From an uncultured Fibrobacter sp. (GTDB lineage: Bacteria; Fibrobacterota; Fibrobacteria; Fibrobacterales; Fibrobacteraceae), in contig CAMHDS010000016.1 in NCBI GenBank assembly GCA_946183925.1, forward strand, positions 1-36,127: a stretch of 36,127 nt of DNA, given 5' to 3'. Made by a program: the position numbers and the translations under genes. This document shows positions 1,248-29,938 of this stretch, piece by piece (the first letter of the stretch is position 1; each line of letters starts with the position of its first letter). Under the pieces are notes generated by a model. The model did no database searches. It saw only the letters and a list, made by a program, of their open reading frames with translations, and had not been told where the DNA came from.

Positions 1248-1820
1248 ATGAATGCTGGGGTTCCAACATCCGTGGAAAAGTTGAGAAGGCGCTGTGCGGG
1301 TGTCACCATGGTCGAGTTGGCGGCGGTTGTTGCCATTATGGGTATTCTCGCTGGTCTAGGGGTATCGAAACTACAGGGGGCCATTGCCAATGCTAACATC
1401 AAGGATGCGGCTTTCAACGTAACGGCCTTTATGGAACGCACCGCAAACGAGGCCCGCAGGATGAGTACCACGTTATGCGTGCAGGTGGATGCGAACAGTG
1501 CCCAAAAACTGGTGGCGTATAGGAGTTCTTGCACATCTGTAGCAGATGCCGCAAGGGTGGACAGCATCGTGCTAGAATCCCCGAACAGGATTCTTGCCGA
1601 CAACGAGGTGAATGCAAATGCGACCATTGGGAACGTAAACTTTGCAACGTCGGGAGCCGAATTTAAGCCGAAGCAAGGGCTTTCTGCTGCTCCTTCCCAG
1701 GGATTCTTTGCAGTGCAGTATGGTGGCAGGGGTGTTTTTGGAGCTGCTGTCAAGTTGAAGGACCGGAACACCTTTATTCCCATGATGAAATTCGAAGACT
1801 CCAATTGGTCAGGAATTTAG
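1248..1820 (+). CDS. Prepilin-like protein, GspH/FimT type (first gene of tip operon)
   Basis: A 190-residue protein with a class III (prepilin peptidase) leader: a basic stretch ending RRRCAG, cleavage after Gly18, then VTMVELAAVVAIMGILAG with Glu at mature position 5. The mature part starts with a hydrophobic helix that runs into an amphipathic helix and a beta-rich globular domain, as in GspH/FimT minor pseudopilins. The ATG at 1248 is preferred because GGGAAGAG lies just upstream. An in-frame ATG at 1233 has no visible ribosome-binding site and would add five residues. It heads an operon of four prepilin-like genes with gaps of 9 bases, -4 bases and 9 bases. In T2SS and T4P systems the H-I-J-K minor pilins build the fibre tip; that is the likely role. 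Assignment to H rather than another class rests on gene order and length. Confidence 0.8.
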   Translation: MNAGVPTSVEKLRRRCAGVTMVELAAVVAIMGILAGLGVSKLQGAIANANIKDAAFNVTAFMERTANEARRMSTTLCVQVDANSAQKLVAYRSSCTSVADAARVDSIVLESPNRILADNEVNANATIGNVNFATSGAEFKPKQGLSAAPSQGFFAVQYGGRGVFGAAVKLKDRNTFIPMMKFEDSNWSGI

Positions 1821-1829
1821 GGGGTTGCG

Positions 1830-2351
1830 ATGTTTTCACGGTGCATGGACCCGACAGCAAAGAAGTTCCGCCGCAAGCGCGGCATTGGCATTATGGAAAT
1901 CGTGGTGGCTGCCATGGTGCTAGGTATCCTTTACATGGGTGTTTCGAATTTGCAGAAGGGCAACCGAGAGGCGTTGTTGCGCATTAGAGGGCGTGATGGC
2001 GCCATTACGGTGGCCCAGAATATCATTGACAGCCTTGGGTCCCTTGGTCTTGCAAACTTTACGGATGAAGCTCTACCCAAGGACGATGTTGGCGATATTC
2101 GGTGGACCCTGGATACCATCAACACGAGACGTATATGGTTGGGTCAGCCGGGCCTTTTACAGGACACCATGAAGGTTGATTACTTTGCCGTGGTCACCAT
2201 ATCCCCCGACAGCGTCTACAAAGCGAAGGCGACCTCCTTGTATCGCCCGGATAGTATCTCCCATGTTTTCGCCAAGCGCCTTGATGTAAAGGTGGGCTGG
2301 TATTTCAAGGGCTCTGAGCAGTCCATTTCCGTTTCGGGGGTAATCAGATGA
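1830..2351 (+). CDS. Prepilin-like protein, GspI/PilV type
   Basis: A 173-residue protein with ATG at 1830, preceded by AGGGGG. The prepilin leader is FRRKRG (cleavage after Gly18), followed by IGIMEIVVAAMVLGILYMGV, which puts Glu at mature position 5. The rest is a short mixed domain (residues 45-173) with the periodic hydrophobic pattern of GspI/PilV minor pilins. The gene ends in a 4-base ATGA overlap with the next one, so translation is probably coupled. By position it is the I-like member of an H-I-J-K set. I-like subunits normally link the J-K tip to the rest of the fibre. It could equally be called PilV; the sequence alone does not separate T2SS from T4P use. Confidence 0.8.
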   Translation: MFSRCMDPTAKKFRRKRGIGIMEIVVAAMVLGILYMGVSNLQKGNREALLRIRGRDGAITVAQNIIDSLGSLGLANFTDEALPKDDVGDIRWTLDTINTRRIWLGQPGLLQDTMKVDYFAVVTISPDSVYKAKATSLYRPDSISHVFAKRLDVKVGWYFKGSEQSISVSGVIR

Positions 2352-3772
2352 TTCGTTTTGGACGAAAGTGCGGTTTCACCCTGGTAGAACTGCTGGTCTA
2401 TATGGCCCTGCTGAGCATTATCGTTTTGGTGGCTGGTCGGGCCTTCTCCGATTCCACCAAGTTCCGTGTCCGTACGCAGAACATGCTCCGCGCTACCCAG
2501 GAGGCGGAAAATGTTGCAATGCTTTTTAAGTCCGACGTTTCCCAGATGGGAGCCAAAAGGTCAGTAAATTCAGGAACCCCGGCAAGCGGGACGGCCGGTG
2601 ACAACTTCAGCAACGTTTACGGGGATGTGTTCATAGACCCGGACAATAGTGACTCTTCCTCCTTCCAGTTGGATTCCTCCGGCTTTTCTTTCCGTTATGT
2701 CCGCTATGATGCTCAGGGACACTATGTTGGGGTTGATGAAGCCCACTGGTTTGTAGTGGATGAAGTTTTGAAGCGTGCCTGTCGCAACATTTCGGGGGCC
2801 GCGGACTCCAGTTCCTGCAAAAGGCAGTCTGTGGACGAGGCAAAGGAGAATGCGGTAGATATTGCGACGGGAGTGAAATTCTTCCAGGTTCTTCCGGCTA
2901 GGCCGAATACGCTCGGCGGCGACGAACAGCTGTTCCCGCCCGCTATTTCCGGGGACAGTTCTTCTGTGGATTACTTTAGGCTTGTTCCCAGAAACGACGA
3001 TATAGGGAAGTTCGCGACCGTGCATGTGGAGAATGCTCTGGGCGAGGCTAATTTTGCGGGGACGGGCCAAAAACTGGGAGGCTCTGCAGGGCCGTTCTTT
3101 TCGAACTACGACAATGAGAACCAGCAGATTCTGGGTGCGGGACGCAAGGTCAGCGAACTCATCGCCATTGGTAAAGACAACTCCGCGGGGGGAGGTCTTG
3201 CCCTTTGCAAACTTCGCGGTGGCAAGCACAATGGCCGCATACTTCTTGAAAAGGATGCGGAGTACGAACTGACCTTCTATGTACCGCGGCCTTCGAGTAA
3301 CGCGGATAAGAGTTTGCTCTTTGTTCCTGGCAAGGACCACATGTCGGTGGGCTTTAGGAACTTCTTTACTGGGGAACCGCCCATGAAAACTGTAGGTGAA
3401 TCTCAGATCCGCTTAATTGATGACTTTATGTTCTTTCCGCCGCTGTCTACAAGGACTGGCGAGGGACGGAGGGTCATGCGCTTTACGGTTCCCGAAGATA
3501 TCGATTCCCTGTGTATCGCTTTCACATTCGCATTCTATTCGCCCCTGGCTTCAAAGGGGTCCATTACCATAGAAAACTTGAAACTTCGCAAACTTGCGTA
3601 TGCGAACTACGAATTTGCGGAAGGGTATAACCCAAATCCTGTGGATAAGCAAAATGTAAGGGCCATGAGATTATCTCTGCATGTTGCCCGAGGTGGGAAA
3701 GGCGGGCTGCATGGAGAAACGGACTCCATCGTTGTTGTCGTCCCAACCCCTAGCAACGGACCCAGAGATTAG
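2348..3772 (+). CDS. Prepilin-like protein, GspJ/PilW type, with extra jelly-roll-like domain
   Basis: A 474-residue protein overlapping the previous gene by ATGA. The leader MIRFGRKCG is cleaved before FTLVELLVYMALLSIIVLVAG, a textbook N-terminal helix with Glu5. GspJ/PilW proteins are usually near 200-350 residues, so this one is long. The extra mass lies about residues 245-420. There, a strand pattern (EKDAEYELTFYV, MRFTVPEDIDSLCIAF, GSITIENLKLRKL) resembles CBM4/9- or galactose-binding-type jelly-roll domains, in which an ordered beta-sandwich ends in a 'gxixIDNvxl' strand. That match is by pattern only. The C-terminus (MRLSLHVARGGK...DSIVVVVP) looks like the usual end of PilW/GspJ proteins. 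If correct, a sugar-binding-like module is built into a pilus-tip subunit. The pilin call is strong; the domain call is tentative. Confidence 0.78.
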   Translation: MIRFGRKCGFTLVELLVYMALLSIIVLVAGRAFSDSTKFRVRTQNMLRATQEAENVAMLFKSDVSQMGAKRSVNSGTPASGTAGDNFSNVYGDVFIDPDNSDSSSFQLDSSGFSFRYVRYDAQGHYVGVDEAHWFVVDEVLKRACRNISGAADSSSCKRQSVDEAKENAVDIATGVKFFQVLPARPNTLGGDEQLFPPAISGDSSSVDYFRLVPRNDDIGKFATVHVENALGEANFAGTGQKLGGSAGPFFSNYDNENQQILGAGRKVSELIAIGKDNSAGGGLALCKLRGGKHNGRILLEKDAEYELTFYVPRPSSNADKSLLFVPGKDHMSVGFRNFFTGEPPMKTVGESQIRLIDDFMFFPPLSTRTGEGRRVMRFTVPEDIDSLCIAFTFAFYSPLASKGSITIENLKLRKLAYANYEFAEGYNPNPVDKQNVRAMRLSLHVARGGKGGLHGETDSIVVVVPTPSNGPRD

Positions 3773-3781
3773 GAGGGATTT

Positions 3782-6700
3782 ATGAAGTGTGCAACGCGGA
3801 AAGTGAAATGCGTAATGAGAAAAACTGGTGTTTCCCTCATTACCGTCCTTCTGTTGATGCTTGTGGCCACCATTGCGGCCACGGCCACTTACAAGTGGAT
3901 TACCAGCGAGGGGCGTTCTAGCGCAAGTCGCCTAAGACAAAGTGAGGCTTACCAGAGTGCTGTGGCAGGCATCGAGAATACCCGGTCCTGGATGACGTTC
4001 CATGCCAACGATGTTGGCGCCCTTATCCGCCAGTACATGAACGATCAGTCCAACCCTCGAAAGGCCATAAATTTGGACAGCCGTCTCCGCTCTTTCCAGC
4101 AGGCAGGACAGGATTACCATGTGTGGCTTACCGGCGTAAACGTTGATGGAAACACCTACAAGTTGAAAATCCTTTCTAGCGGCGAAGCGGCCAACGGTTC
4201 GCGTCATAATGAGGCGGCCATACTGGTGGTGGACGGTCTTTACCAGGTCACGCTCCCGCAGACGGAACACCATGCGCACATTGATTTTGATTTTGCCTAC
4301 TATGGGGGGTCCTATACCTCTTCGGGAAAAACGGTGATGACGTCGGGAGTGGTGAACGGAAACTGGAGCGGTAACCCGCCGGAAGTAACCAACAACTGGA
4401 TTGTGACGGGAAACGCTACGTTGTCCGGAAATGACTTGAAGGTGGGACAGACTACCTGCATAGGCGGAAACCTTTCGGTCGAAAACAACGGTATTACCAC
4501 TACGGATCTCTATGTGGGCGGTGAATTTGACGGGCTCATCAAGAGAGCCAGCGGCAGTGTTTACTTTAACGGCGATGCTAAACACTCCGGAACGGGCTCC
4601 ATGGTTATAGATGGGAACCTTACCGTAAACAACATATACAGTACGGCCCAGAATGCAACTGACCGTGCTACTAGGGTGGGGGGCAACCTGTGCGTTTCCG
4701 ATTCAGGGACAATCCTTTCCAAGGGCGTTTCGGATGTGTTTCAGGTCAGCGGAAATGTGTGGATGCCGGGTCCCCAGAATTTATGGTACGGCTCTGTGGA
4801 CAAGTATGGTTGCGTGTGTAACATTTACAGCCCTGCATGGGCCAGCGATGCGAGCCATCTCGTTTCGTCTGGAACGCCGTGTACAAAATCCGGTGCTGAT
4901 TGGGGCGAAGGGAGAAATTACGTCCAGACTAGTTGCACAGGCAAGCGTCTGGCTGCCAGCGATGGCGACGTAAACACCAACAAGGGTTCCTTCAACAAAA
5001 TCATCCTAGGTACGGATGCCTCGTCCGAGGTCTACATCAACAGTGCCATAACTACGTCGACATACAATAGCCTGGCGGCAAGGTCTTACACGGAAAATTC
5101 CACCTGGAAAAGAAATTGCCCCGAAGCTAACAAGATTTCCACCAATGATGAATTCAGCATCACGATAGGTGACGGTGGCTCGAACCATGAACGTTATCCG
5201 GCCGCAAAGAATCTTTGTGGATCCTGGAGTGCCCCGCAATGGCATCCGACAGGCTTGACCGATGACTATTATCCGACCTATACGCGGGGCTGGAACAACT
5301 GGGGGGGAAGTTCCTATGCGCCTTACTCTCCGGCGGTTGCCGTTTCCGATACCATGTTTGCCATGTATTACACAGGTGGTGTGGAAGACGTGAAGTTTGG
5401 CACCTATAACCTGACAGACTGGAAAGTTTTCAAAAGTGGCGTGGATAGCAGAATCAAGTTGGGCTATGTTCGTGGAGACGGTTCTCGCTTCAACTCCAAT
5501 GTCTTTAAGCCGGTTTCCTCGGAAATTTCAAACAAGTTCTCTTCTCCTGCAGTCATCGGGGCCTACATTGTGGGCGGGGAACTGTTCTTTGACCCTAGGG
5601 ACAACGCTTATAAAGGATATAATTACGATATCGCTGCGGGCAAGGCGACGGGGTCGCCCTTTTGCAGAAAGAAATCCGGAAACGATTGGGAACCGGAATG
5701 CCGCGTGACTCCCTGGTTCAAGTCCAAGGGGACCGTTTCTAGTTCCATGCCCAACGAAAGGGAATTCGGCTGTGCCGAGGACGTGATGACAAACTGCTTT
5801 GAAATTTGGGAGCCGAGCGACAACGGTTGCGACAATTCCAAGTACTTTGTGGACGACCCGCTGGTTACGTGCTACGACGATTATCTGCCGTATGCAGAAA
5901 AGGGATGTGCTGCAAGCATTACTACGTGGCCGCAGAGTGGCTTTGAAACGGCGCTCAATAATTGCTACAGTCAAACAGTTGAAGACGATTCTCTCAGAGC
6001 AGCCAACCTTTACGGTGGTTACCTGGTGGTACACATAACCGGAGCCAATCCCGGATACAACTACGGGACTAGTGGAACCTTGAACGGCAAATTCCTCATT
6101 ATTGTGGATAACCGGGTCAAGGCGCAGAACGGTTTTCCCAAGACATCGGCGGATTCAAAGGTTTTCCTTTATCTTGAACAGGGTGCCGACAAAATTCAGG
6201 GGACTCTCGAACATTACTTTATTTACACCAAGGTGAATACTGGAACGTCTGACCAGCTCAACTTGACGGGAACCCTCTACTCACCGGCGGAACTTTGTGT
6301 AACGAACCGTTTCCAGAGTTCTACCTTGACTGTTGACCTTCCTTTAATCCAGGACCTTCGCGATGCCGGCATCATTACCGAGAATGATGGTTCCGCCTCG
6401 TGTGGTTCTGGTGGCGGTGGTGGTGCCGGTGCCGGTGGTGGTGGCGGTGCCGGTGGTGGAGCCGGAGGCGGAGGTGATGTTGTCATCATCGATAGCGACA
6501 CCAAGGACGCATACTATATTTCTATGGCCCCGCAGTTGGGTGTTTACGTGGAAACGCAGTATGAATCCGGGGAGACGTTGCCTGCAGGCAACAATAACGT
6601 GGATGTCGTGGATTCGTCATTCGTTGTGTTGCCCAGAGTTATCTACCTTCCGAGGGATCCCTATGGCACACTTTCCGACTACTACAGCATTGTTCCCCTT

Positions 6701-9700
6701 AACGGTTCTTCTCTACAGCAGAGTGGAGTGAATATCCAGTGCCCCGCGGGACTCCCTACAGATGGGGATCTCTATTCTGGTACTCTCCTGGACCAGAAAG
6801 TTTACAGATGTACCGCCAGTGCGTCGGGTTATACCAGCGTCCCGTTCTGGGTCGCGGTCAGCGAAGTACTGAGAGGAACCCCGCAGGTCTATTTTGTGGA
6901 ATCCGTCCAGGAGATGGCCCCTTCGGGTTCTGCCGAGGTCCACGCCTACATTCCTCCCCACGCAAATTCCATAACGGTCCTTGTCTCTTGCCCCACCAGT
7001 TTGCCCGGTGGCTGGACTGTCAACCCGTATAACGCCGACCCGTCGCCTGCCGCTGGGGTCTGCTCGTTTACCTTCCTCCCGGGGCAGGAGGGGGCGCAGA
7101 AGTTGTTCGACGTTACGACCAGTGGCGCAAGCAACGGAACCATCTTCTTCCAGTTGCTCCATGGCGAGGGCTATGCCCTGTCGAACCCGTTCATTTCGGA
7201 ACTTCATGTGTCCAATGTGGCTACCATCAATCGAATAGACCCGACTCCCGAAGAAATCGACGCCTATTGCGAAGCTATTCCTGATGACTGCCCCGAAGTG
7301 GGGCACCGTGACGCATCGGAATGGCCCGATTGCAAGGTGGACTCCATTACCTGGATAAAACCCTCGACGTATGCTTCCATTGTTGATACGAATAATTCCT
7401 GGACCATTCCTGCGGGAGGTGCCGGGCAACTGACTCTTATCGAGGATGAACCCATACCCGGTTGCGTGGTCATTATCCCTATGGACAACAATACCCTCAG
7501 TCGCGACACCGTCAAAGCAGACCGCTTCTACGAGCTCAGGGCCATTGCAAAGGCAAAGAAGAGTTCTGTAAAGGTGGGCTTCGCGGGCGACGTGGGCGGA
7601 AGAAATGCCAATGTGGTTATTGCCTCGGGTTCCCGTGAAGTTTCGTGCTTCTACGAAGATGTCAAGGACAGCGTTCCCAAGGCGTGTACGTTGGACCTTT
7701 ACACGGGCGATACGGTCGAGGTCTCCATTTCAAAAACTGATGGCCGGAATTCGGACTTCAATTACTGGAAATGCGAGAACAACGGCGGCAACACTTGCCC
7801 CACCACGGACCCCATTTCCAGTGCGGCATACAGGAAATTCACCATAAAGGACAACAGGGCCATTATCTACGCCCATTTTGGCGAGGTGGACCAGCACTGT
7901 TTCTTTGACGAGTTTAAGCAGGGCGGTGTGGAATGCCACGCCGGCAATCAGCAGTACTGCATAGACAAATGCGGAAACAATGCTAATTCCGTGTGCGTAA
8001 ATGCCCTTGACGATGGATCCTACTCCGATTCCAAGTGGCACCTGGTGGAAGGTTCCCTCAGCAGCATCGAGGATTCTTACGAAAGGATATCCATAGACAA
8101 TGACGCGTCCAGGGGCGATAACCGTGCCAATAGGGAAGCCGTCAAGGTGATGAGTACCACCAAGCCGGGCTTGCGCGGAACGCTCAAGGCCCTGGTACAA
8201 TTGCCAAAGGCCACCGCCAGTTACGGAAGTTTGTCCAACAACATCTCCAAATCGGGTTTCCTGCTTCATTCCAATACTACGGGAACCGAATTCCTGATGC
8301 TCAATGTCTTTGTGAACACTGCGGGCAAGTTGGCTGCAAATGTTTGCGTCAATGGTCAGGGCGGCGAATGCCGCTCGGAAACACCCAAGAGGAACGGCAA
8401 CACTCTTGATGTATCCCCGTCTTCCATGGTGATGGTGGAGGCTACGCTCACGGATTCCAATACGCTGGAGTTGACGGTGTTCTCCGGAAATTACTATGGG
8501 ACTCCGGATACCTACACAAGTTCCATTAAACTGTACGAACTTTCCACCACCTACAGTGACCGAGAACATGAGTACTTGGGCTTTAGTATGGCCGACCCCA
8601 ATTTCAAGATTTACGGCATTGGCTGGAACAGTGACGATTATGGGGCTGACGAATGCTGGGATACCTTCCCGACGGTCAAGTGTTCCTTCTCCGCCAAGGC
8701 GACTAATGGCGTTATTCCTACGGATACCATCGTGGAACCCTGGCTCGGTCATTCCGGATGGTTCGACAGCAAGAACTGTACTCCTGAGTATTATTATTAC
8801 AATGGCACGGATGCGTGCAGTGGGCAGGCCGGCATAGAGGTAGGTTGCCCCAATTCGGGATTCTACTTTAGCGGCGAAGGTGCCGGGCAGCATGGTTACC
8901 GTGATAACGGTGAGGATGTCAAGGCTGCCAAGGCTTGGCTGAGTTGCCTTAGCAACGATGACCAGGTGGTGGCATGGGCGGCCGGTACGGAAACGCGCCG
9001 TGCCCACTGCGGTCTGTTCTGGACCGGGAAGTTTGCGGAGTGTACAAACCACGCTGATTTTGGCGTGCTGGCCTCCATCAGTTCTGGGCTAGAAGGAACC
9101 TTGACCCTGGTGGGTACTGCGAACTTGCGCGACGCCAGGTTGAACATCACCCTGGAGAACCCAAACAATAGCGAAGTGGAAGTCTGGCTCCTGAGCGAAA
9201 ATGCCACATGGGGCGCAGACAATTTTGCAAGCAACTCGGTGAAGTTTACGGGAACGAGCGTGAGTTTTGACGTGGGAACATCCTTTGTGGAGGGTGCCCA
9301 GGGATTCGACCCGGAACATGTAAAGCAGGTGGTGGTCAAGAACCTTGACGATTACTCCGTGACCAATGTTTCTGTCACATCGACATGTTCGCACGCTGTG
9401 GGAATTTCCAATTGCCAGGCTGCATACAATAACCAGACGGGCAAATGGGAAATATCGGCCGACGTGAGCAACAGTGGCAAGGTGTCTGCCTATGCCATAA
9501 CAGGCCAGGTGAGTTCTTCTGACGTGGTTTCCTCTACCGATGAACCCACGGAATGGAACGACTCCCGTGCCACCTGGAAGATAACGCATAACCCCTATGG
9601 CTCTTACCAGGGCAGTACCTTTGACTTTACGGCTTCTGTTACAAACGCCAGCGGCGAGACCTTCTCCACCTCCTGCGGGAGCGTGACTATCGGCAGCACT

Positions 9701-11716
9701 ACCTGCAGCAACTACTCGTCAAGCAACATTGCCAGTGGTGCCGCGTGGCCTGCCTTTAACTTTAGGCTGAACAACTGCCCCCAGAACAGTTGCGATTACG
9801 ACATCTATTTTGACGGGTCCCTCTTGAGCGGGAACAGCGCCTGTACCGACGGCTCGTGTTCCGGTTCGTGTTCCAATACGGGCTGCAATTCCCTGGCAAA
9901 GACCAAGGAAGGAAATGCAGAGGAATGTACCACCGACGGTGGCTGTAGCCACACCTACGAGGTGCGCAGTTCCAATGACGACAAACCGTTTACTCCGTGT
10001 GAAGTGTCCTTCAAGGTAGCCAAGAAGGTTTCCACGGAGGTGACGGCAACCTGTAGCGTGGGCGGAAGTTTGTATCAGGGACAGCAGTTAACGCTTAATG
10101 TGTCAAATATTACCAATGTTCCAAACCTTAACAATAATGTGCAAATGGTATGGACATTTAACGGCTCTTCAAAGACCATTGATTGCGGTTCGAGTAACTG
10201 TTGGAACAATACGATCACAGCTCCAGCGCCAGGTACCTACTCGTATTCGTTGTCTTACAATGGGAACCCGGTTGAAGGATGTTCTGGTACAGTGGAAATA
10301 GGCTCGATACTTACATGTTCTGTATCGCCGACCACAGTGGATAAAGATGGAACTTATGCATTTACGGCAAATGCAGCTGTAGGTTGCAGTAACTGTTCCT
10401 TTACAGATGCTACGGGTGCTGTGGAGAACAACCTTAGTCTCCAAGCAGGAGGAAGCTTAACAAGAAATAAAACAGCAAGTAGTACAGGAAGCAAAACTCT
10501 TTCTTTTGCTTGTAATTCATGCAACAACAATGTTAGCACTTCCTGTTCGGCATCTTTGACTGTTAATGCTGTGGCTCCATCGTTTAGCTGTCCCACAAAT
10601 CAGACAGAAACTGTGAGTACATCTGTTTCGATAACACCGCAGAATCTAACAGGTTGTGAAGACGGTTGTAGCTATACGATTTCAGGAACTTCTATTACCG
10701 GAAATGGATACACTGGCGGGGCTCTACCCGGCTTTGTCGGGCCTTCTTCTGCGGGTACGGTGTCTTATACAGTGAGTTTGACAAATACAGCCGGAACTGC
10801 TTCCCATAATTGTTCCATAACATATAACGCGGCAACACCTGTAATATGCCATTGTGCAGATTACTGTGGAAGCGGATGCGAAGATAATATTGTTACGGGT
10901 AATGTCTTCCAAAATCCGTTTACCGGTTGCATATTTGTAGTTTCTGCAACTAGACTTGATATTAATCAAGGATATACCGTTAATGGAAGTACTCCGTCAA
11001 CTGGACAACTGTGTTATGACAACGCCACAAATTGTTCAAATGCCCTTGCAAATTATTCGGCAGTAGATGGCGGATGGTATTTCTATGTAGTGAATAAATA
11101 TACAGATGTCCGTTCTACTGGGTACAATCCCTGCGCGCCTAATGTTCAACCTGTACTTGATGATTGTCCCGTTGTGTCAACAACAGTATCGCCGGGATCA
11201 CCTGTGGTAATTACTCCGGCTTTATCGACCGATTGTAACACGCAGAACGGGTGTACCTATGCAATTTCTGGGGATTTCTCTACAACTGGATCATATCGTG
11301 CTGGAAATATTGAATTTACCGATACGGGTGCATCCAACGGGAGCAGTCGAAATTACTCCCTCGTTATATCAAATAGTGAAGGATCCTCTGGAGCTTGTTC
11401 TATTGGTCCAATAACATATTCTGCTGCTGCAAGTATTCAAATAACAAAAGGTGATAATAACGTTTCTGTTCCCTGTGGCAAAACCATACACCTCACAGGG
11501 ACCTGCAATGAAAACACGTGGGGACCATTCTACTTGCACGTTGAGTGCTCTGGACAGTTCACGAAAACTGTGGGAGGTGTAAGTGCTGGTCAGTATAACG
11601 TAGTTAACTACGGTGCAGGAAATGCTTATAATGGAATGGATGTAAACTTAACAACATCATGTGATCCTTCGCCTAATACAATGAGCTGTAAAGCTTGGTG
11701 CGATTGGAATCCGTAA
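3782..11716 (+). CDS. Giant (2644 aa) GspK/PilX-like prepilin with multidomain extracellular region; putative pilus-tip adhesin
   Basis: The ATG at 3782 follows AGGAGGG. The leader ends RKTG, cleaved after Gly16, then VSLITVLLLMLVATIAATAT; position 5 is Thr, not Glu, as in GspK-like tip subunits. GspK is normally about 300 residues and PilX about 200. Regions by pattern: 1-170 pilin part; about 185-330 repetitive beta-helix-like segment (many 'xxVxGNLxV' turns); to about 870 further beta-rich sequence; 875-898 almost pure Gly/Ala linker; about 1260-1370 an InlB-B-repeat-like stretch ending IIYAHFGEV; about 1373-1640 a concanavalin/LamG-like sandwich; about 1900-2644 Cys-rich Ig-like repeats and two further compact Cys-rich domains. 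The last gene of the H-I-J-K-like operon, it is probably carried at the fibre tip and exposed outside the cell. The 3' fifth is clearly AT-richer than the rest. Ligand unknown. Confidence 0.85.
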   Translation: MKCATRKVKCVMRKTGVSLITVLLLMLVATIAATATYKWITSEGRSSASRLRQSEAYQSAVAGIENTRSWMTFHANDVGALIRQYMNDQSNPRKAINLDSRLRSFQQAGQDYHVWLTGVNVDGNTYKLKILSSGEAANGSRHNEAAILVVDGLYQVTLPQTEHHAHIDFDFAYYGGSYTSSGKTVMTSGVVNGNWSGNPPEVTNNWIVTGNATLSGNDLKVGQTTCIGGNLSVENNGITTTDLYVGGEFDGLIKRASGSVYFNGDAKHSGTGSMVIDGNLTVNNIYSTAQNATDRATRVGGNLCVSDSGTILSKGVSDVFQVSGNVWMPGPQNLWYGSVDKYGCVCNIYSPAWASDASHLVSSGTPCTKSGADWGEGRNYVQTSCTGKRLAASDGDVNTNKGSFNKIILGTDASSEVYINSAITTSTYNSLAARSYTENSTWKRNCPEANKISTNDEFSITIGDGGSNHERYPAAKNLCGSWSAPQWHPTGLTDDYYPTYTRGWNNWGGSSYAPYSPAVAVSDTMFAMYYTGGVEDVKFGTYNLTDWKVFKSGVDSRIKLGYVRGDGSRFNSNVFKPVSSEISNKFSSPAVIGAYIVGGELFFDPRDNAYKGYNYDIAAGKATGSPFCRKKSGNDWEPECRVTPWFKSKGTVSSSMPNEREFGCAEDVMTNCFEIWEPSDNGCDNSKYFVDDPLVTCYDDYLPYAEKGCAASITTWPQSGFETALNNCYSQTVEDDSLRAANLYGGYLVVHITGANPGYNYGTSGTLNGKFLIIVDNRVKAQNGFPKTSADSKVFLYLEQGADKIQGTLEHYFIYTKVNTGTSDQLNLTGTLYSPAELCVTNRFQSSTLTVDLPLIQDLRDAGIITENDGSASCGSGGGGGAGAGGGGGAGGGAGGGGDVVIIDSDTKDAYYISMAPQLGVYVETQYESGETLPAGNNNVDVVDSSFVVLPRVIYLPRDPYGTLSDYYSIVPLNGSSLQQSGVNIQCPAGLPTDGDLYSGTLLDQKVYRCTASASGYTSVPFWVAVSEVLRGTPQVYFVESVQEMAPSGSAEVHAYIPPHANSITVLVSCPTSLPGGWTVNPYNADPSPAAGVCSFTFLPGQEGAQKLFDVTTSGASNGTIFFQLLHGEGYALSNPFISELHVSNVATINRIDPTPEEIDAYCEAIPDDCPEVGHRDASEWPDCKVDSITWIKPSTYASIVDTNNSWTIPAGGAGQLTLIEDEPIPGCVVIIPMDNNTLSRDTVKADRFYELRAIAKAKKSSVKVGFAGDVGGRNANVVIASGSREVSCFYEDVKDSVPKACTLDLYTGDTVEVSISKTDGRNSDFNYWKCENNGGNTCPTTDPISSAAYRKFTIKDNRAIIYAHFGEVDQHCFFDEFKQGGVECHAGNQQYCIDKCGNNANSVCVNALDDGSYSDSKWHLVEGSLSSIEDSYERISIDNDASRGDNRANREAVKVMSTTKPGLRGTLKALVQLPKATASYGSLSNNISKSGFLLHSNTTGTEFLMLNVFVNTAGKLAANVCVNGQGGECRSETPKRNGNTLDVSPSSMVMVEATLTDSNTLELTVFSGNYYGTPDTYTSSIKLYELSTTYSDREHEYLGFSMADPNFKIYGIGWNSDDYGADECWDTFPTVKCSFSAKATNGVIPTDTIVEPWLGHSGWFDSKNCTPEYYYYNGTDACSGQAGIEVGCPNSGFYFSGEGAGQHGYRDNGEDVKAAKAWLSCLSNDDQVVAWAAGTETRRAHCGLFWTGKFAECTNHADFGVLASISSGLEGTLTLVGTANLRDARLNITLENPNNSEVEVWLLSENATWGADNFASNSVKFTGTSVSFDVGTSFVEGAQGFDPEHVKQVVVKNLDDYSVTNVSVTSTCSHAVGISNCQAAYNNQTGKWEISADVSNSGKVSAYAITGQVSSSDVVSSTDEPTEWNDSRATWKITHNPYGSYQGSTFDFTASVTNASGETFSTSCGSVTIGSTTCSNYSSSNIASGAAWPAFNFRLNNCPQNSCDYDIYFDGSLLSGNSACTDGSCSGSCSNTGCNSLAKTKEGNAEECTTDGGCSHTYEVRSSNDDKPFTPCEVSFKVAKKVSTEVTATCSVGGSLYQGQQLTLNVSNITNVPNLNNNVQMVWTFNGSSKTIDCGSSNCWNNTITAPAPGTYSYSLSYNGNPVEGCSGTVEIGSILTCSVSPTTVDKDGTYAFTANAAVGCSNCSFTDATGAVENNLSLQAGGSLTRNKTASSTGSKTLSFACNSCNNNVSTSCSASLTVNAVAPSFSCPTNQTETVSTSVSITPQNLTGCEDGCSYTISGTSITGNGYTGGALPGFVGPSSAGTVSYTVSLTNTAGTASHNCSITYNAATPVICHCADYCGSGCEDNIVTGNVFQNPFTGCIFVVSATRLDINQGYTVNGSTPSTGQLCYDNATNCSNALANYSAVDGGWYFYVVNKYTDVRSTGYNPCAPNVQPVLDDCPVVSTTVSPGSPVVITPALSTDCNTQNGCTYAISGDFSTTGSYRAGNIEFTDTGASNGSSRNYSLVISNSEGSSGACSIGPITYSAAASIQITKGDNNVSVPCGKTIHLTGTCNENTWGPFYLHVECSGQFTKTVGGVSAGQYNVVNYGAGNAYNGMDVNLTTSCDPSPNTMSCKAWCDWNP

Positions 11717-11817: not shown

Positions 11818-12183
11818 CTACCGGTTGCTAGGAGATTCCTTGGCTTTCTCCGCTGCGATTTTTCGGGCTTTTTCGATTAAGTCGGCTGGCGCACCAAGTG
11901 ACTCTAAAATATCTATTCCCTCAGCACGACCTTCTGCTAACCCTTCGGCACGGGCGTGCTTCTTTTCTACGTACATTTCGTATAGTCGGTCGCTCATGTT
12001 CATTGCCTCGCTTACCAGGAACTCTTCGGTAAATATACTCAATTTGGCCTTCTCCTGCAAGCAGGCGAACAGCGAACCTTCGGGCACGGGAACGGGGTTT
12101 TCCTTGTTCAGACCGTCGATCACCCGGAGCCACTGGGCGATGCGGCTGCGGTCAGAGCTGTGGATGGAGCATTCTTTGCGCTT
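11818..12183 (-). pseudogene. Rpn family nuclease remnant (C-terminal part only)
   Basis: The minus-strand frame from about 12153 reads DRSRIAQWLRVIDGLNKENP and continues to a stop at 11818. It aligns with residue 205 onward of the intact gene at 1-935, which has DRSRIAQWLRSIDTLNRE, and the DNA of the first ten codons is nearly identical. The nuclease core (residues 1-204 in the intact copy) is absent. Upstream the frame meets stop codons inside the inserted palindrome and GIY-YIG gene. A GTG at 12123 could still express about 101 residues of helical, charged sequence, including the AEGLAEGRAEGIDIL segment typical of Rpn C-termini. Some Rpn genes do make a separate C-terminal product from an internal start, so a residual function is possible but not shown. 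Confidence 0.75.
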
Positions 12184-12497
12184 GTCATGCCCGCCTCCGA
12201 GCGGGCATCTCCTATTTCATTCGTCAAATCAACCCATTGCGGATTAAATTTCTCAATCAAGTCGATCTTCCATTTGCGCGTCCATCGTTTCAATCGTTCT
12301 TCCCGCTTTATGGCGCTTTCAATGTTGTAGAATAGTTCGTAGTAGACAAGGATATCTGTGTTATATTTTTCTGCAAAACCATGATGTATCTTCATCTTGT
12401 GTTCAAGAGTTCTTCTGTATAGATTGTTTGTGACACCTGTATAAAAGACAGTTTTATATTTGTTTGTAAGTATGTAAACGTAGTAGTTATAGTTCAT
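12120..12497 (-). CDS. GIY-YIG endonuclease domain protein (UPF0213-like)
   Basis: A 125-residue protein. The ATG at 12497 is preferred over an upstream TTG because GAGG lies 5-6 bases before it. The single GIY-YIG domain shows YYVYIL (residues 5-10), FYTGVTNNLYRR (18-29) with the catalytic-type Tyr and Arg, Glu32, and the usual KREERLKRWTRKWKIDLIE helix (64-82). Homologues normally end soon after the 'NPQWxDL' motif seen at 85-91. Here about 30 further residues (from about 96) are read out of a REP-like palindrome and then, out of frame, out of the rpn remnant, so the tail is probably accidental. The gene lies between two inverted palindromes and replaces the N-terminal half of an rpn gene. 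It is likely a small selfish or repeat-associated nuclease. The domain is certain; the cellular role is unknown. Confidence 0.82.
   Translation of the reverse strand: MNYNYYVYILTNKYKTVFYTGVTNNLYRRTLEHKMKIHHGFAEKYNTDILVYYELFYNIESAIKREERLKRWTRKWKIDLIEKFNPQWVDLTNEIGDARSEAGMTSAKNAPSTALTAAASPSGSG
12184..12212. repeat. REP-like palindrome (left end of GIY-YIG unit)
   Basis: TGTC, then ATGCCCGC, a 6-base loop, GCGGGCAT and CTCC. This is the inverted form of the palindrome at 12518-12547 (GGAG...GACA). It lies inside the out-of-frame tail of the GIY-YIG gene, a few codons from the point where rpn homology resumes. Confidence 0.7.
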
Positions 12498-12517
12498 AAG
12501 AATCCTCAAAGGTTAAA

Positions 12518-18086: not shown

Positions 18087-18311
18087 TTAATAACGATTAG
18101 AGATTGATTTCGGGTCTGGGTTCACCACGACCCGGTTTTTAGTTTGTATCAAGTCCTGCAAGAGAGCCCCCGTGCTGGTCTGGTAGTCCCTCTGCAGCCG
18201 CACGTAATCCCCGTGCATGCCTTTCCACACGCCAAATGCCACCAGTGCCACGATTCCCGCGCAAGCCATGGTCACCACCAGCTCCATCAATGTGAATCCG
18301 TCTCTTCGCAC
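18087..18311 (-). CDS. Very short prepilin-like protein (74 aa), last gene of secretin operon
   Basis: The GTG at 18311 is taken as start: AAGGA lies about 8 bases upstream and the frame gives MRRDG, cleaved before FTLMELVVTMACAGIVALVAF with Glu5. The mature protein is only about 69 residues: the hydrophobic helix, an amphipathic extension (HGDYVRLQRDYQTSTGALLQDLI) and a short tail. Pseudopilins normally have a globular beta domain after the helix and reach 100-200 residues, so this is either a minimal helix-only subunit or a truncated gene. It overlaps the preceding pilin gene by 25 bases, implying translational coupling. A longer frame starting at 18374 would bury the leader peptide and is unlikely. 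Confidence 0.68.
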   Translation of the reverse strand: MRRDGFTLMELVVTMACAGIVALVAFGVWKGMHGDYVRLQRDYQTSTGALLQDLIQTKNRVVVNPDPKSISNRY

Positions 18312-18673
18312 CGTACAATCCTTTTCAAGGTCAAGTCGTTCCAGTATCCCGAGGTTTCGTGAACGGCCACCCACTGCAGGGGGACACTCCCCGGTACGCG
18401 TTCAAACGACAGTGAAAAATCTATCCCCTGCCTCGACACCGGAACCGAGGTCAAGGCCGTGTCGGCCGGGTCGCGCCTAGGCTTTACACAAGGGGCAGGC
18501 TTTGCCACCTGTTCTTCCATCAGAGCCACCGCCTCCAAGAGGGAGTGTCCCTTTTGGGACTCCCTCTCCTTTATCTGAGAAAAACTGACAATGGTATGCC
18601 CGATTCCCATAGCCCCGATAGAGAGCACCACCACGGCCACCATGACCTCCATCAAGATAAAGCCCCGTTTCAT
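18287..18673 (-). CDS. Prepilin-like protein, GspI/PilV type
   Basis: 128 residues, ATG at 18673 in a 4-base ATGA overlap with the upstream gene. Leader MKRG, cleaved before FILMEVMVAVVVLSIGAMGIG with Glu5, then a short globular part (residues 35-128). Size and pattern fit GspI or PilV minor pilins. It sits between a K/PilX-like gene and the 74-residue pilin in the secretin operon. This is the second set of minor pilins in the window; the first is at 1248-11716 and is much larger in its J and K members. It probably forms part of a fibre tip or a short pseudopilus with its neighbours. Confidence 0.8.
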   Translation of the reverse strand: MKRGFILMEVMVAVVVLSIGAMGIGHTIVSFSQIKERESQKGHSLLEAVALMEEQVAKPAPCVKPRRDPADTALTSVPVSRQGIDFSLSFERVPGSVPLQWVAVHETSGYWNDLTLKRIVRCEETDSH

Positions 18674-19548
18674 AGGCGCCCCCAGATTTTACGTTTGCCC
18701 TCTATAAAGGCGGGGAACAGAATCCCGCCAGGAGCATCCTCAGAGTTCTGCGCAGTCTCATTCTCGTCACTTTCGGACCAGGTTGCCACTATAGCCGTCG
18801 GAAACAGACTCCGGGCACGGTCTTGCATCCGGAAACTTGAAGCAAGTACCACCCCCCGAAAACACGCATCCTCTTCGGCACGGAAACCGCCTCGAGTGAA
18901 GAGCTCTAAGTACCCGACAGACATCTCTCCCTGAAAAACGACATCGCCCAAGGAATATAACCGGAGCGTATCAAAATGGGCCCTTCCGCGAATAAGGACG
19001 GAACCTTCCACCCAGAAGCTAGCCGAACGAATGCTGTCGGAAAAATTCATCTCGAGATCGCCCTGATGAATAGCGCCCGACATAAACTGTTCGGCCTGAA
19101 AATAACGCTTGTTTCCGTACAGGTCTTTTTCCGCCGTCATCTCCTGCAGCCGCTTTTCCAAATCGGCCCTGTAAGCAGACATCCCGTTCGACCATTCCCA
19201 AAAAGAAACGTCGTGAGGTTCCGTTCCCGCCACAAAGCAAAGCTCCCCCACGCCCGACGCCTTGCCGGAACTGTCCACGACAGCAGAAGCACAAATCTTT
19301 TCCCAAGGGCCGAAGGGTTCCGCCTGCACGGGAGGCAGTTCCGGATAATACCCCGACGGAAACCCCTGCAGGTGAAGCAGCACGGCAGATTCCGCCTTGT
19401 AGAAATTCTCGAAATCCGACTTGAAGCGGGCATACACCGGATTCATGTGTCCTACCGTTTTCAGCAGAGTGGTAAAGAGCAGCGTCAGGCTCAGCAGCAG
19501 AACCGCCACCAGGGGCAGCACGAACCCGCGGGAACTAGGGCGCACCAT
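18670..19548 (-). CDS. GspK/PilX-like prepilin protein
   Basis: 292 residues. ATG at 19548 is chosen because GGAGG lies 7 bases upstream; a GTG at 19569 lacks one. Leader MVRPSSRG, cleaved before FVLPLVAVLLLSLTLLFTTLL; position 5 is Leu, not Glu, as in K/PilX-like subunits. After the pilin helix comes a region with Cys residues. At about 175-250 a beta-helix-like series of short strands follows (SFWVEGSVLIRGRAHF, LYSLGDVVFQGEMSVGYLELFTRGGF), similar in style to the N-terminal third of the giant prepilin. It overlaps the upstream gene by 14 bases. Likely the tip subunit of the fibre assembled by this operon. Confidence 0.75.
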   Translation of the reverse strand: MVRPSSRGFVLPLVAVLLLSLTLLFTTLLKTVGHMNPVYARFKSDFENFYKAESAVLLHLQGFPSGYYPELPPVQAEPFGPWEKICASAVVDSSGKASGVGELCFVAGTEPHDVSFWEWSNGMSAYRADLEKRLQEMTAEKDLYGNKRYFQAEQFMSGAIHQGDLEMNFSDSIRSASFWVEGSVLIRGRAHFDTLRLYSLGDVVFQGEMSVGYLELFTRGGFRAEEDACFRGVVLASSFRMQDRARSLFPTAIVATWSESDENETAQNSEDAPGGILFPAFIEGKRKIWGRL

Positions 19549-20599
19549 TGAGCACCTCCCACTCCGCACCTCCGCACTCCAGCACCACCCGGTCCCGAAG
19601 CACGGATTTCACCCGGTACGACTCCAAGGAATCCCCCGCCCTTTTCACGACCCGCGCACCGGCGAACACACCCGAAAACAGCCTGTCCCCTACGATTCCC
19701 TGAACGGAAATAGACGGCCTTGGGCACTCGGTAGCCGCCTCTCTGGCTTTCGGGCGCGAGCTTTTTGCAGTTTTTTGGATACGGGGCTCTTTTGATATGG
19801 GCCCTGTCGCGGGTGTGGATAGCACAGGGGCTTCCGGAGACGGCAGCGCTACGCCGCCGGCATCAAGATTTTCCCGCACAAGAATTCCCGCAAACATCAT
19901 CAGGAAAAATAGCATTAAAGAAAGTGCCGCCGCCCTCCCCCGCTTTGGGGATTCAAGATGCAGGCCCTTCCAGAACGGATCCTTTGCGGCTTTTCCAAGC
20001 TGTACCACCCATACCGCCGCAGGGTCGCCGAAGTCCACTTCCAGGAATTCCAGCTCGCCATGCCGGAAATTTTCCGCTTTCGAGAACAGCGGGTCCTGCC
20101 GCAAGAATTCGTCCATCCGCGCAAGCCGATTTAACGCAAGTTCTTTTCCGCAGGCTCCCTCGTAACCCCGTTCTTCGGACCAGTGGCAAAGCCTGCCCTC
20201 GTAAAAGACCAGCACGTACAAGGTGCCGTTCACGATAGCGGCATAGCGAAAGTTCTCGTAGCTCTCCCAGGATTCCATCTGGGCATCGGCCCTGGCGTAC
20301 AGGAACAGGGAGCGAGGCAGGGCGCGCCTTCCCCGCCAACAACACTTGCCGAAACCTTTTTCGCCGTCGCTTGACCCAGGCGAGCCGAGGATTACCAGGT
20401 ATCGGTGCCTTCGGCCCTCCGGCGAATTGAAGGACACCATCTTCCAGAATTTTGGAATACCTTCCACTTCCGGAAAATCCCTTCGGAAAAAATCCCTTCG
20501 GAAATATTCCAGCAGGTTTTCGGGGGCAAGACTTTCTTCAAATCCCGTCACCAGCTCCCAGGTGCAAATCCGGGCGTCAACGCCCTGAACGCGGGCCAT
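19535..20599 (-). CDS. Inner-membrane assembly protein with C-terminal PilP/GspC-like domain
   Basis: 354 residues; its ATG overlaps the secretin stop codon (TGATG). The first about 225 residues are cytoplasmic by prediction. A piece RYAAIVNGTLYVLVFYEGRL resembles the actin-like fold of PilM or the cytoplasmic part of GspL, but this is weak. A single membrane helix follows at about 226-247 (AALSLMLFFLMMFAGILV). Then comes a Pro/Ser/Ala-rich linker, and a periplasmic domain from about 297 (ISVQGIVGDRLFSGVFAG...GDSLESYRVKSVLRDRVVLECGGAEWEVL). That last domain has the homology-region pattern shared by PilP and GspC, which bind the N-domains of the secretin. Position next to the secretin supports it. 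It may combine jobs split among PilM/N/O/P elsewhere. Function moderate, gene certain. Confidence 0.68.
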   Translation of the reverse strand: MARVQGVDARICTWELVTGFEESLAPENLLEYFRRDFFRRDFPEVEGIPKFWKMVSFNSPEGRRHRYLVILGSPGSSDGEKGFGKCCWRGRRALPRSLFLYARADAQMESWESYENFRYAAIVNGTLYVLVFYEGRLCHWSEERGYEGACGKELALNRLARMDEFLRQDPLFSKAENFRHGELEFLEVDFGDPAAVWVVQLGKAAKDPFWKGLHLESPKRGRAAALSLMLFFLMMFAGILVRENLDAGGVALPSPEAPVLSTPATGPISKEPRIQKTAKSSRPKAREAATECPRPSISVQGIVGDRLFSGVFAGARVVKRAGDSLESYRVKSVLRDRVVLECGGAEWEVLNGAP

Positions 20600-22305
20600 C
20601 AGAACTTCACCTCCGGAGTGATGAAGATGGCAAGTTCGCTTTCTTCTTCCTCCTCACTCTCGTAGCTGAAAAGTTTCCCGATAAGCGGAAGGCTCCCCAA
20701 AAAGGGTACAGCCGTGCGCACCTCGGTCTTGTTCTTGCGCACCAGTCCCCCGAGGCAAAGGGTTTCCCCGTTTTTCAAAAGCACCATGGTCTTTAGGTTC
20801 CGGGTGCTGATGTCCCGCGGGCCGTCACCGGAGCTGCGTCCCGCCGTCTTGATTTCGGGAGCCACGTCCAGAGTGATTACGCCCTCCCGGGTTACCGATG
20901 GCGTAAGCTCCAGAGAAATGCCGTCGTTGAAGGAGCGGTAATCCGTAATGGGGTAACCTTCGGCGCTGACCTGGCTCACCAGGTAATAGACCGTATTGGT
21001 CACGTTCAGTTCCGCCTTGTTGCCGTTCAGGGTGGTAAGCCGCGGGCGGGCAAGGACCTTCGCCTGGTTGTTTTCTTCCATAGAGGCAAGCTCCAGCTCG
21101 AATCGGTCCGGCAAGATGCCGATTTTACCGACGGCCCCCTTGCCCGAAGCATCCTTTCCCAAAAAATCCAGGAAACCTTTCAGTCCCAAATCGCCCTCCT
21201 TGGTGCGGCGACCAGAGCCTCCCCGTAGCCCGATTTCAAAAGCGCTCCCCTTCCGGAATTCCACAATCACGCAGGAGAGTGTCACCTGCATCAGGGGAAC
21301 GTCTATTTTCTGTAAAAGGGCCTCCGCCGATTCAATCCGATCGGTGGCTCCCGAAAGCAGCACGGCATTCTGCTCCTTCACTTCCGAAACCGCCATTTCC
21401 GTTCCAGAAAACATCTTTCCCAGCTGTTGCAGGGCGTGCTCGCCAGAGACGTGTTTCAGCGGGTAAAGTTTCGTCACCGAAAGGGGATTCCGGTTTCCTC
21501 CCTCCGATACAGACAGCGTATTGGAATCCAGCCGGAAGGCGTATCGGCTCCCCCGGAACAGGGCCTCCAAAAAATCCTGGAGGCGCACGTTTGAAAAATC
21601 CAGGCGGACCTTTTCGTCCAGGTTCCCGTACATGGCAAGGTTCAACTCCGCAAGGGCGGCCAGTTCCTTTACGGCCTCCCCTATGGGGACGCCGTCCAGA
21701 TGGGCTTCGTAGAGCGAATCCTCTTTCCAGATTCGTGCAGACGATTCCGGTTGTGCGCCCGCGGCCTCCCTGCGGTCCCCCGCCTGCACCATCCGGACCA
21801 TCAAGCAGCCATTCTTCTTTTCTACAGCAAAGCCGTTGACTTCTAGCAGGGAGCGAAACGCACGCTCCAAAGGCAGACTGCGGATACTTCCGGAGAGATT
21901 CCCCTGGACATCCGGCTTCCACAAGATGTTCAGCCCCGTGGTGGCGCTGAACTCTTCCAGAAATTCAAGAACGTCCTTGTCCTGCACCTGGACCGACACC
22001 AGGGAATCCTGCAGGCGGATGTCGCTTTTCCCGCGAAGCTTTTGGGGCTCTATTACCAGCAGGTTCTCCTTCTGGACTAGTTCCAGCCCGTTGGATTCAC
22101 ACAAGGCGGACAAGCCCTCCAAAAGGGAAACTCCTTCCAAATGGAATGTGACCCGACGGTCCACGCCGGCATCCACCATTACGGGAACATCGTAGGCCAG
22201 CGACAAAGAACGGGCCACCTCCTGCACGGGAGTGTCCACAAAATCAAGGGTTACAGCGCCCGACGCAAGGGCGGCCAACAAAAGAACTAGGGGGAGGGCA
22301 CGCAC
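20599..22305 (-). CDS. Secretin (PilQ/GspD family outer-membrane pore)
   Basis: 568 residues, GTG start at 22305 with GGAGG 8 bases upstream. A signal peptide (residues 1 to about 17, LPLVLLLAALASGA) is followed by short N-domains: STN-like (about 18-70), then two KH-like repeats (about 95-165 and 185-260) and another at about 265-345. The C-terminal secretin domain covers about 350-568, with VLARPRLTTLNGNKAELNV, the TPSVTREGVITLDVAPEI strands and the signature GGLVRKNKTEVRTAVPFLGSLPLIGKLF near the end. It forms the outer-membrane channel for a type IV pilus or type II secretion machine. It is the first gene of an operon followed by the PilP/GspC-like protein and three pseudopilins. It lacks an AMIN domain, so PilQ versus GspD cannot be settled. 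Confidence 0.9.
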   Translation of the reverse strand: MRALPLVLLLAALASGAVTLDFVDTPVQEVARSLSLAYDVPVMVDAGVDRRVTFHLEGVSLLEGLSALCESNGLELVQKENLLVIEPQKLRGKSDIRLQDSLVSVQVQDKDVLEFLEEFSATTGLNILWKPDVQGNLSGSIRSLPLERAFRSLLEVNGFAVEKKNGCLMVRMVQAGDRREAAGAQPESSARIWKEDSLYEAHLDGVPIGEAVKELAALAELNLAMYGNLDEKVRLDFSNVRLQDFLEALFRGSRYAFRLDSNTLSVSEGGNRNPLSVTKLYPLKHVSGEHALQQLGKMFSGTEMAVSEVKEQNAVLLSGATDRIESAEALLQKIDVPLMQVTLSCVIVEFRKGSAFEIGLRGGSGRRTKEGDLGLKGFLDFLGKDASGKGAVGKIGILPDRFELELASMEENNQAKVLARPRLTTLNGNKAELNVTNTVYYLVSQVSAEGYPITDYRSFNDGISLELTPSVTREGVITLDVAPEIKTAGRSSGDGPRDISTRNLKTMVLLKNGETLCLGGLVRKNKTEVRTAVPFLGSLPLIGKLFSYESEEEEESELAIFITPEVKF

Positions 22306-22368
22306 CGCAAGACCTCCATGAAAGACATATTCAAAAGAGATTCCTGCGGAATCCGCCGAAGAACGACG

Positions 22369-22385
22369 CTAAAGAGAATCTTTAG
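22369..22385. promoter_or_regulatory. Palindrome upstream of the secretin operon
   Basis: CTAAAGA-GAA-TCTTTAG is a perfect inverted repeat with a 3-base centre, about 65-80 bases upstream of the secretin start. No tract follows that would make it a terminator. It could be an operator, but this is based only on its symmetry and position. Confidence 0.3.
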
Positions 22386-22403
22386 GCATTCCGCGGGGTA
22401 AAA

Positions 22404-22440
22404 TACAAAAAAGAATTCCCCGAGAGTAGCCCGGGGAATA
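22404..22440 (-). terminator. Rho-independent terminator after pilT
   Basis: On the minus strand ATTCCCC (22439-22433) pairs with GGGGAAT (22421-22415), followed by TCTTTTTTGTATTTT. It lies 25 bases after the pilT stop codon and separates the pilT operon from the secretin operon. Confidence 0.8.
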
Positions 22441-22464
22441 AAGAAGCAACAATCCGAATAGAAT

Positions 22465-28156: not shown

Positions 28157-28165
28157 GAGATAGTT

Positions 28166-28258
28166 ATCAGTTTTCAGTTTTCAGTTGTGAGTACTGCGAA
28201 TTTCAAGAAGCTACATTCAAAAAACACACAGCTCATACGCGGTACTCAAAACTCATTA
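28166..28258. repeat. Structured intergenic repeat element
   Basis: Short direct repeats (TCAGTTT three times, about 28167-28186) lead into an inverted repeat: AGTTGTGAGTACTGCG (28183-28198) and CGCGGTACTCAAAACT (28238-28253), complementary at 14 of 16 positions. The right arm ends at the stop codon of the next gene. It has the same general design as 14766-14866 and 33505-33680. Confidence 0.55.
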
Positions 28259-28969: not shown

Positions 28970-29002
28970 AAATTCCTCTACATTCACTTACAATCTACAA
29001 AA

Positions 29003-29926: not shown

Positions 29927-29938
29927 CATGACCTCGAT

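Follow-up and report, generated by a model that had tools for sequence, protein, structure and literature searches.

A giant modular minor pilin found throughout Fibrobacteraceae is a candidate type IVa pilus tip adhesin for plant polysaccharide

Tapirins, the cellulose adhesins of Caldicellulosiruptor, are encoded near type IV pilus genes, and we know of none that carries a train of domains beyond its beta-solenoid. In other systems the adhesive module is grafted onto the pilin itself, and a survey of such modular pilins, which argued for their position at the tip, named a protein of 860 residues as the most extreme multidomain case (PMC8179133). The PilB and PilC proteins of Streptococcus sanguinis are small pilin modules with grafted adhesive modules and are predicted to sit at the tip (PMC8179133, PMC9934059), PilC being a pilin joined to an Ig-like and a concanavalin-A-like lectin module that binds glycans (PMC9934059). 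ComZ, a competence pilin of Thermus thermophilus with a large inserted beta-solenoid, binds DNA and has been argued to cap its pilus (PMC6561018), and Myxococcus xanthus runs clusters 1-3, each with all the minor pilins (FimU-PilV-PilW-PilX) plus PilY1, on one machine (PMC7541494). The attachment of Fibrobacter to cellulose is a long-standing question, in which both fibro-slime proteins and pilins of the type IV class have been implicated; papers on F. succinogenes adhesion mention the two (PMC3079729, PMC4668043, PMC6851124), and a type IV pilin was reported to be absent from cellulolysis-deficient mutants (PMC6851124, citing earlier work), while no tip adhesin of Fibrobacter is named in the adhesion literature that we found. 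Here we analyzed a stretch of 36,127 nucleotides (hereafter the window) from an uncultured Fibrobacter sp., contig CAMHDS010000016.1 (C16) of a 2.76-Mb metagenome-assembled genome (MAG) that is 81% complete, which carries four prepilin-like genes, here called H, I, J and K, the last of them giant. Our results favor, with reasonable though not high confidence, the reading that the products of this locus make up the tip complex of a type IVa pilus that can retract, in which the giant K protein would be a modular tip adhesin for plant polysaccharide and the J-K part would be replaceable.

The four genes run in the same direction and in the order H-I-J-K between positions 1233 and 11716 (Table 1). 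A preliminary description of this DNA had recognized four consecutive prepilin-like genes with intact class III leaders, and a fourth protein of 2,644 residues without the glutamate at position 5 (Glu5), in an operon spanning positions 1248 to 11716. The open reading frames (ORFs) and direct reading of the leaders bear this out with the exception of the start, as position 1248 is an internal ATG of a frame that opens at 1233. The leaders read ...RRRCAG/VTMVE in H, ...RRKRG/IGIME in I, MIRFGRKCG/FTLVE in J and MKCATRKVKCVMRKTG/VSLIT in K, so that Glu5 is found in the first three and Thr at +5 in K. When the window proteins were scanned with Pfam, N_methyl exceeded its cut-off in H and J, and it was found in 40 of 40 relatives of J. 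In K, the leader is followed by a hydrophobic alpha1 segment (MKCATRKVKCVMRKTG/VSLITVLL..., with the classical hydrophobic helix VSLITVLLLMLVATIAATATYKW), as in modular pilins, and in the model described below a helix spans residues 11-78. Residues 35-144 of that model resemble the S. sanguinis minor pilin PilA (7o5y, Z 8.8) and, among minor pseudopilins of the type II secretion system (T2SS), EpsI/EpsJ (2ret, Z 6.0) and XcpV/XcpW (5bw0, Z 5.8), all from VIA-align against the Protein Data Bank (PDB); the preliminary description would have counted the lack of a pilin-type fold here as a refutation, and the alpha/beta fold of pilins is in fact predicted at this end of K. Membership in a named family is another matter. 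K scored 14.2 bits against the curated GspK model NF037980 (cut-off 130), over residues 15-72 only, and 11.2 bits against PilX_N (PF14341; gathering cut-off 25.5), where the giant of G144, a complete single-contig genome from another genus of the family, reached 21.0 bits and was also below threshold. The PilY1 beta-propeller (PF05567) was not among the Pfam matches of K, and scans of K with Pfam and NCBIfam gave no domain over cut-off. K does share with GspK the missing Glu5 and its place as fourth gene of an H-I-J-K operon, but "K-like", the label given to it earlier, is a description of position rather than of family.

Two AlphaFold2 models of single chains, built from 53 and 47 related sequences, cover most of the giant. 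The first, of residues 10-880 (mean predicted local distance difference test score, pLDDT, 86; predicted template-modeling score, pTM, 0.73), shows a long helix, a three-stranded pilin sheet with strands at 102-141, a beta-solenoid from residue 158 and a cap to residue 862; the second, of residues 898-2090 (mean pLDDT 82, pTM 0.58), gives beta-sandwiches in a train, their placement relative to one another being unreliable, and Foldseek matched it mainly to Ig-like domain trains. According to VIA-align, the three closest matches of the solenoid and cap are the three solved C-terminal domains of tapirins (4wa0, 6n2b, 6n2c; Z 18.3, 16.8 and 16.0, with 286-299 residues aligned), the best of which, 4wa0, aligns over 293 of 358 residues at 3.6 Å and 10% identity, a likeness of fold only. 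Ice-binding proteins follow at Z 13-14, and then ComZ (6qvi) at Z 10.6; as in ComZ, the predicted solenoid is probably inserted in the pilin framework. In addition to its best match, the lectin-like domain resembles the bean amylase inhibitor in 1dhk (Z 12.3), the ERGIC-53-type carbohydrate-binding domain 4gkx (Z 11.7) and the mannose lectin YwfG (Z 9.6-9.8). The modeled giant therefore carries modules that are not specific to pili (beta-solenoid, Calx-beta/Ig and lectin-like), it includes domains with predicted folds typical of carbohydrate binding, in support of the earlier proposal, and the richness of K in cysteine and beta domains noted in the preliminary description holds as well. The Gly/Ala hinge noted there at residues 875-898 is present in the window K, but it is not general, since a Gly/Ser/Ala run occurs at the equivalent place in only a few of 24 giants.

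Table 1. Features of the H-I-J-K locus, of the giant K protein and of the genes around them, in positions of the window.
Feature	Position	Strand	Basis
H-type minor pilin, 195 aa	1233..1820	+	Glu5 present, cleaved after Gly23; 23.3 bits with GspH model; N_methyl above cut-off; relatives' alignment
I-type minor pilin, 173 aa	1830..2351	+	Glu5 present; mean column identity 52% across aligned relatives
J-type minor pilin, 474 aa, about 2x usual size, extra module of ~180 aa	2348..3772	+	N_methyl
K-type giant modular tip pilin (predicted), 2,644 aa, without Glu5, 92 Cys	3782..11716	+	ORF, leader, relatives
Helix alpha1 and three-stranded sheet of the pilin part, K residues ~19-153	3836..4240	+	AlphaFold2 model; VIA-align
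Beta-solenoid (with length-variable insert) and cap, K residues ~167-871	4280..6394	+	VIA-align
Gly/Ala hinge, K residues 875-898	6404..6475	+	Sequence; not conserved in relatives
Calx-beta/Ig-like domain, K residues ~1032-1146	6875..7219	+	VIA-align, 3e9t, Z 11.4, 98 aligned, 2.4 Å
Concanavalin-A/L-type-lectin-like domain, K residues ~1368-1621	7883..8644	+	VIA-align, 8zdo, Z 15.9
Jelly roll like GH2 N-terminal domain, then two Ig/FN3-like domains, K residues ~1755-2087	9044..10042	+	VIA-align, Z 9.2-9.6
Hypervariable C-terminal region, K residues 2091-2644, predicted extreme fibre end	10052..11713	+	Median pairwise identity 14%
PDDEXK_2 genes / GIY-YIG-like ORF around the cassette	3-935, 11818-12123, 12120-12509	-	Pfam; by eye

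When set beside the described systems, the S. sanguinis proteins are close in plan, as Ig-like and concanavalin-A-like folds are also predicted in K, the latter in one superfamily with the glycan-binding module of PilC, and PilA, the partner minor pilin of PilC, is its best pilin-fold match. K differs from them in its length, roughly threefold the 860 residues of the longest case named in the survey, in lacking Glu5, in its solenoid beside the pilin sheet, and in having a hypervariable outer region and multiple J-K pairs. ComZ, with its matching solenoid, is a DNA-binding protein of about 554 residues with no train after that solenoid, whereas K has one, and the tapirins, in spite of being the best match, are only 10-15% identical to the solenoid. 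In M. xanthus four minor pilins and a variable tip adhesin are likewise found in alternative clusters on one machine, but the adhesin there is a separate non-pilin and whole clusters are duplicated, while here the fourth pilin itself would be the adhesin and often J-K only is duplicated; a search for PilY1 matched 0 of 168 genomes, yet no control genome matched either. GspH-I-J-K is similar in gene order, in the absence of Glu5 from the fourth protein and in the extra domain in its K pilin, and differs in that the Fibrobacter K falls outside GspK by curated score, has a predicted beta-solenoid instead of an alpha-domain and is found beside a type IVa machine. As modeled, the Fibrobacter giants combine the plans of PilC and ComZ and to add a hypervariable outer region. 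We found no description of the giant in the literature covered, which included papers on F. succinogenes adhesion, in agreement with the earlier remark that a tip pilin of such size and domain mix is not known to have been described.

The giant is not a chance product, because, among 61 genomes of the genus, 58 (including 29 of the 29 good ones) contain a relative of its N-terminal 867 residues, in open frames of ~1,700-3,100 amino acids without internal stops. A profile made from it, run against 168 genomes from the phylum, matched 97, in 12 of 41 genera, almost all of them in one family, Fibrobacteraceae, and the named loci are from Fibrobacter and Fibrobacteraceae, F. intestinalis ATCC 43854 (L075) included. 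J lies directly upstream of K in 63 of the 69 giants compared and the complete H-I-J-K order, with a strict motif, is found in 34, so that the search for this gene order in other Fibrobacterota, which had been proposed as a check, gave a positive answer. Most of the six giants without J start near a contig end, with at least two of the six cases left unresolved. Smaller versions of K occur outside the genus, of 925 amino acids in G146, 2,040 in G104 and 1,500 in G101, which belongs to another family, each with J upstream. The giant, first regarded as a single unusual tip pilin, is real, but the predicted giant tip pilins are a gene family found throughout Fibrobacteraceae, with one to several copies per genome, of about 2,000-3,100 residues, in Fibrobacter and its relatives. 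Conservation along K is uneven. Median pairwise identity is 53% for the pilin part and 21-27% for the core (up to residue ~2,090), many of whose cysteines are invariant across giants; it drops to 16% in the variable residues 316-615 and is lowest, at 14%, in the C-terminal ~550 residues, whose length ranges from 10 to 1,186 amino acids among relatives. The window K and its relative L073 are 70% identical in the core and 22% at the C-terminus.

J and K also appear to travel together. Their counts are equal in 12 of 12 genomes, with one to three of each, and in G045, G047, G006, G004 and G060 the I gene is single and on a separate contig, adjoined by H wherever the flank could be read (G045, G006 and G060), the first four of these genomes having two or three J-K pairs. 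The equal counts and the single, separate H-I therefore suggest exchangeable J-K cartridges on one shared H-I pair, a layout unlike the whole-cluster duplication of Myxococcus. The distances of J and K are correlated (rho 0.57; highest value in permutations 0.19), but shared ancestry confounds this correlation, and we do not take it to prove that the two proteins touch. PDDEXK_2 genes are overrepresented within 10 kb of K genes in five genomes, with 6 observed against 0.45 expected (Poisson p ~7e-6); G050 alone accounts for half of those observed. Such a gene lies within 2.5 kb downstream of 10 of 54 giants. In the window, the cassette has a PDDEXK_2 (PF12784) gene upstream of it and, directly downstream, the remnant of another, beside an ORF that by eye is GIY-YIG-like.

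As for the ligand, the solenoid, the lectin-like domain and similarities to carbohydrate-binding modules (CBM) hint at carbohydrate, each of them weak on its own. The sole CBM64 match over cut-off in 77 genomes of the genus falls at the C-terminal end of a giant (25.9 bits, cut-off 25, 42 of 74 positions). A recurring C-terminal domain was seen in 11 of 65 complete giants, at the extreme end in 9; it often ends in an aromatic residue, occupies residues 2801-2893 in L130 and is shared with 10 other giants, with the marginal CBM64 match in one genome. At L147, the locus of G101, another family of the order, the 1,500-residue K-like pilin has a CBM_5_12-like stretch (E 3.6e-4), below cut-off, and this protein is possibly a smaller relative with a recognizable binding module.

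In the tip complex that we favor, H, I and J would prime and connect the tip and the giant K would cap the fiber, and because its pilin domain lacks Glu5, K would have no subunit above it; the missing Glu5, the bulk of the protein and the gene order point to this position. Outward from the cap there would follow the tapirin/ComZ-like solenoid, the hinge, Ig-like spacers, the lectin-fold domain, more sandwiches and the fast-evolving outermost region. This train, once it had passed through PilQ, would bind plant cell-wall polysaccharide, and with its outer part possibly species- or substrate-specific surfaces, and retraction driven by PilT would pull the cell onto the plant fiber. In the several genomes with one shared H-I and two or three J-K cartridges, alternative tips might be mounted on one machine. 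A number of points weigh against such a reading. The CBM matches are few and marginal, and ComZ binds DNA, so that a solenoid at the tip does not by itself imply carbohydrate; beta-solenoids are, moreover, a common arrangement. The tapirin and lectin matches come from VIA-align Z-scores and speak of fold, not function, while for the first model Foldseek returned no match with E <= 0.001, and profile sequence searches of the PDB with the giant gave nothing significant and no tapirin chain at E <= 10. A folded, Cys-rich train of 2,600 residues would have to pass the secretin, and both the binding and the location of K are things that we infer.

The choice of machine bears directly on an alternative in which H-I-J-K would be the GspH-I-J-K tip of a T2SS pseudopilus and the giant would gate substrates, such as cellulases, or feed them through a secretin. 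In its favor, the N-termini weakly resemble GspH and GspK, most genomes of the genus tested hold a second secretin and an extra GspE-like ATPase, and the 2011 genome paper of F. succinogenes S85 lists a type II pathway, along with three consecutive pilin genes and a pilus gene set that it calls incomplete (PMC3079729); the S85 locus tags Fisuc_0251-0253 of that paper may correspond to H-I-J. Genome G144, however, has the full cassette (178, 157, 436 and 2,448 amino acids) and one secretin only, clustered with PilM_2, PilN and PilO, all over cut-off, in a pilM-N-O-...-Q arrangement, together with one PilB-like and two PilT-like ATPases, named from size and score. Because G144 has the cassette and only a PilMNO-Q secretin, the cassette works, most simply, with the type IVa machine. 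PilM was found in 8 of 8 genomes tested, PilM, PilN, PilO, the secretin and PilT accompany the cassette, and type IV pilus assembly genes are reported from all Fibrobacteres examined (PMC4704652). With the score of K against GspK also far below its cut-off, the T2SS alternative seems to us improbable. The operon at 18287-23565 (-) of the window holds a second PilQ-like secretin, a PilT that scored 462 bits, above its cut-off, a pilin-like protein and two proteins (354 and 299 amino acids) that fall in no family; the preliminary description held that these genes made an assembly machine plausible, but they are probably not the dedicated machine of the giant, in view of G144, which lacks the second secretin, and of the second secretins of other genomes, which are on contigs other than those of the giants. 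The window PilT and PilQ-like secretin are part of what the genus generally carries. The earlier observation is confirmed and its interpretation partly supported: the outline is right, but the scope, the machine and the family label needed correction.

Two further alternatives keep the pilus and change its target. The giant could be a ComZ-like DNA receptor at the tip of a competence pilus, given that the predicted N-terminal architecture of K, a pilin with an inserted beta-solenoid, matches that of ComZ, which binds DNA and has been argued to sit at the tip (PMC6561018). The solenoid of K is, however, closer to tapirins and ice-binding proteins, the remaining stretch of more than 1,700 residues has a predicted lectin fold in it, and several divergent copies per genome with a hypervariable outer region fit surface recognition better, all of which makes DNA uptake a very doubtful function. 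The giant might instead recognize other cells, host mucus or phage, in kin recognition, biofilm or as a decoy, with antagonism driving the variable tip. In favor of this, the outermost region is the fastest to evolve and sets apart relatives as close as the window K and L073, and PDDEXK_2 genes cluster at cassettes as they could at recombination-prone loci; against it, the giant is universal in a genus of plant-fiber specialists, the tapirin-like and lectin-like folds are kept in the less variable part and one tip has a CBM64 match. We consider a target other than plant fiber unlikely, although it deserves more weight than either DNA uptake or secretion.

The retractile type IVa pilus with a polysaccharide-binding tip can be stated in a bolder form, which we offer only tentatively and would not ourselves bet on: Fibrobacteraceae would grip plant fiber by retractile pili with a single giant tip adhesin, made of a pilin, a tapirin-like cellulose-binding solenoid and a lectin-bearing train, with interchangeable J-K on a shared H-I and outermost domains exchanged through recombination so as to match different plant polymers, this last step being proposed because PDDEXK_2 genes cluster at cassettes. 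K is, in any case, a concrete and family-wide candidate adhesin for the grip on plant fiber, and a retractile pilus with such a giant tip, if true, would represent a primary adhesin of fiber degraders and a new layout of the type IV pilus tip.

Other observations concern the neighbors and relatives of the giant. The extra module of J, of about 180 residues, shows in two relatives faint similarity to CBM_11 (E 0.012) and CBM_4_9 (E 0.047), one relative each, and J may be a second, smaller tip adhesin. The Verru_Chthon cassette, a prepilin cassette of four genes that includes one large protein, was considered as the identity of this locus and rejected, as H and J are similar to it only N-terminally and far below cut-off, and the giants show no similarity. 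L105, L126 and L140, on contigs labeled Bacteroidales or Paludibacteraceae, carry Fibrobacter-type giants and are probably misbinned MAG contigs. Finally, at 26525-33058 (-) of the window three glycosyltransferases adjoin a TMEM260-like protein O-mannosyltransferase of 1,039 amino acids, possibly a cluster for glycosylation of surface proteins.

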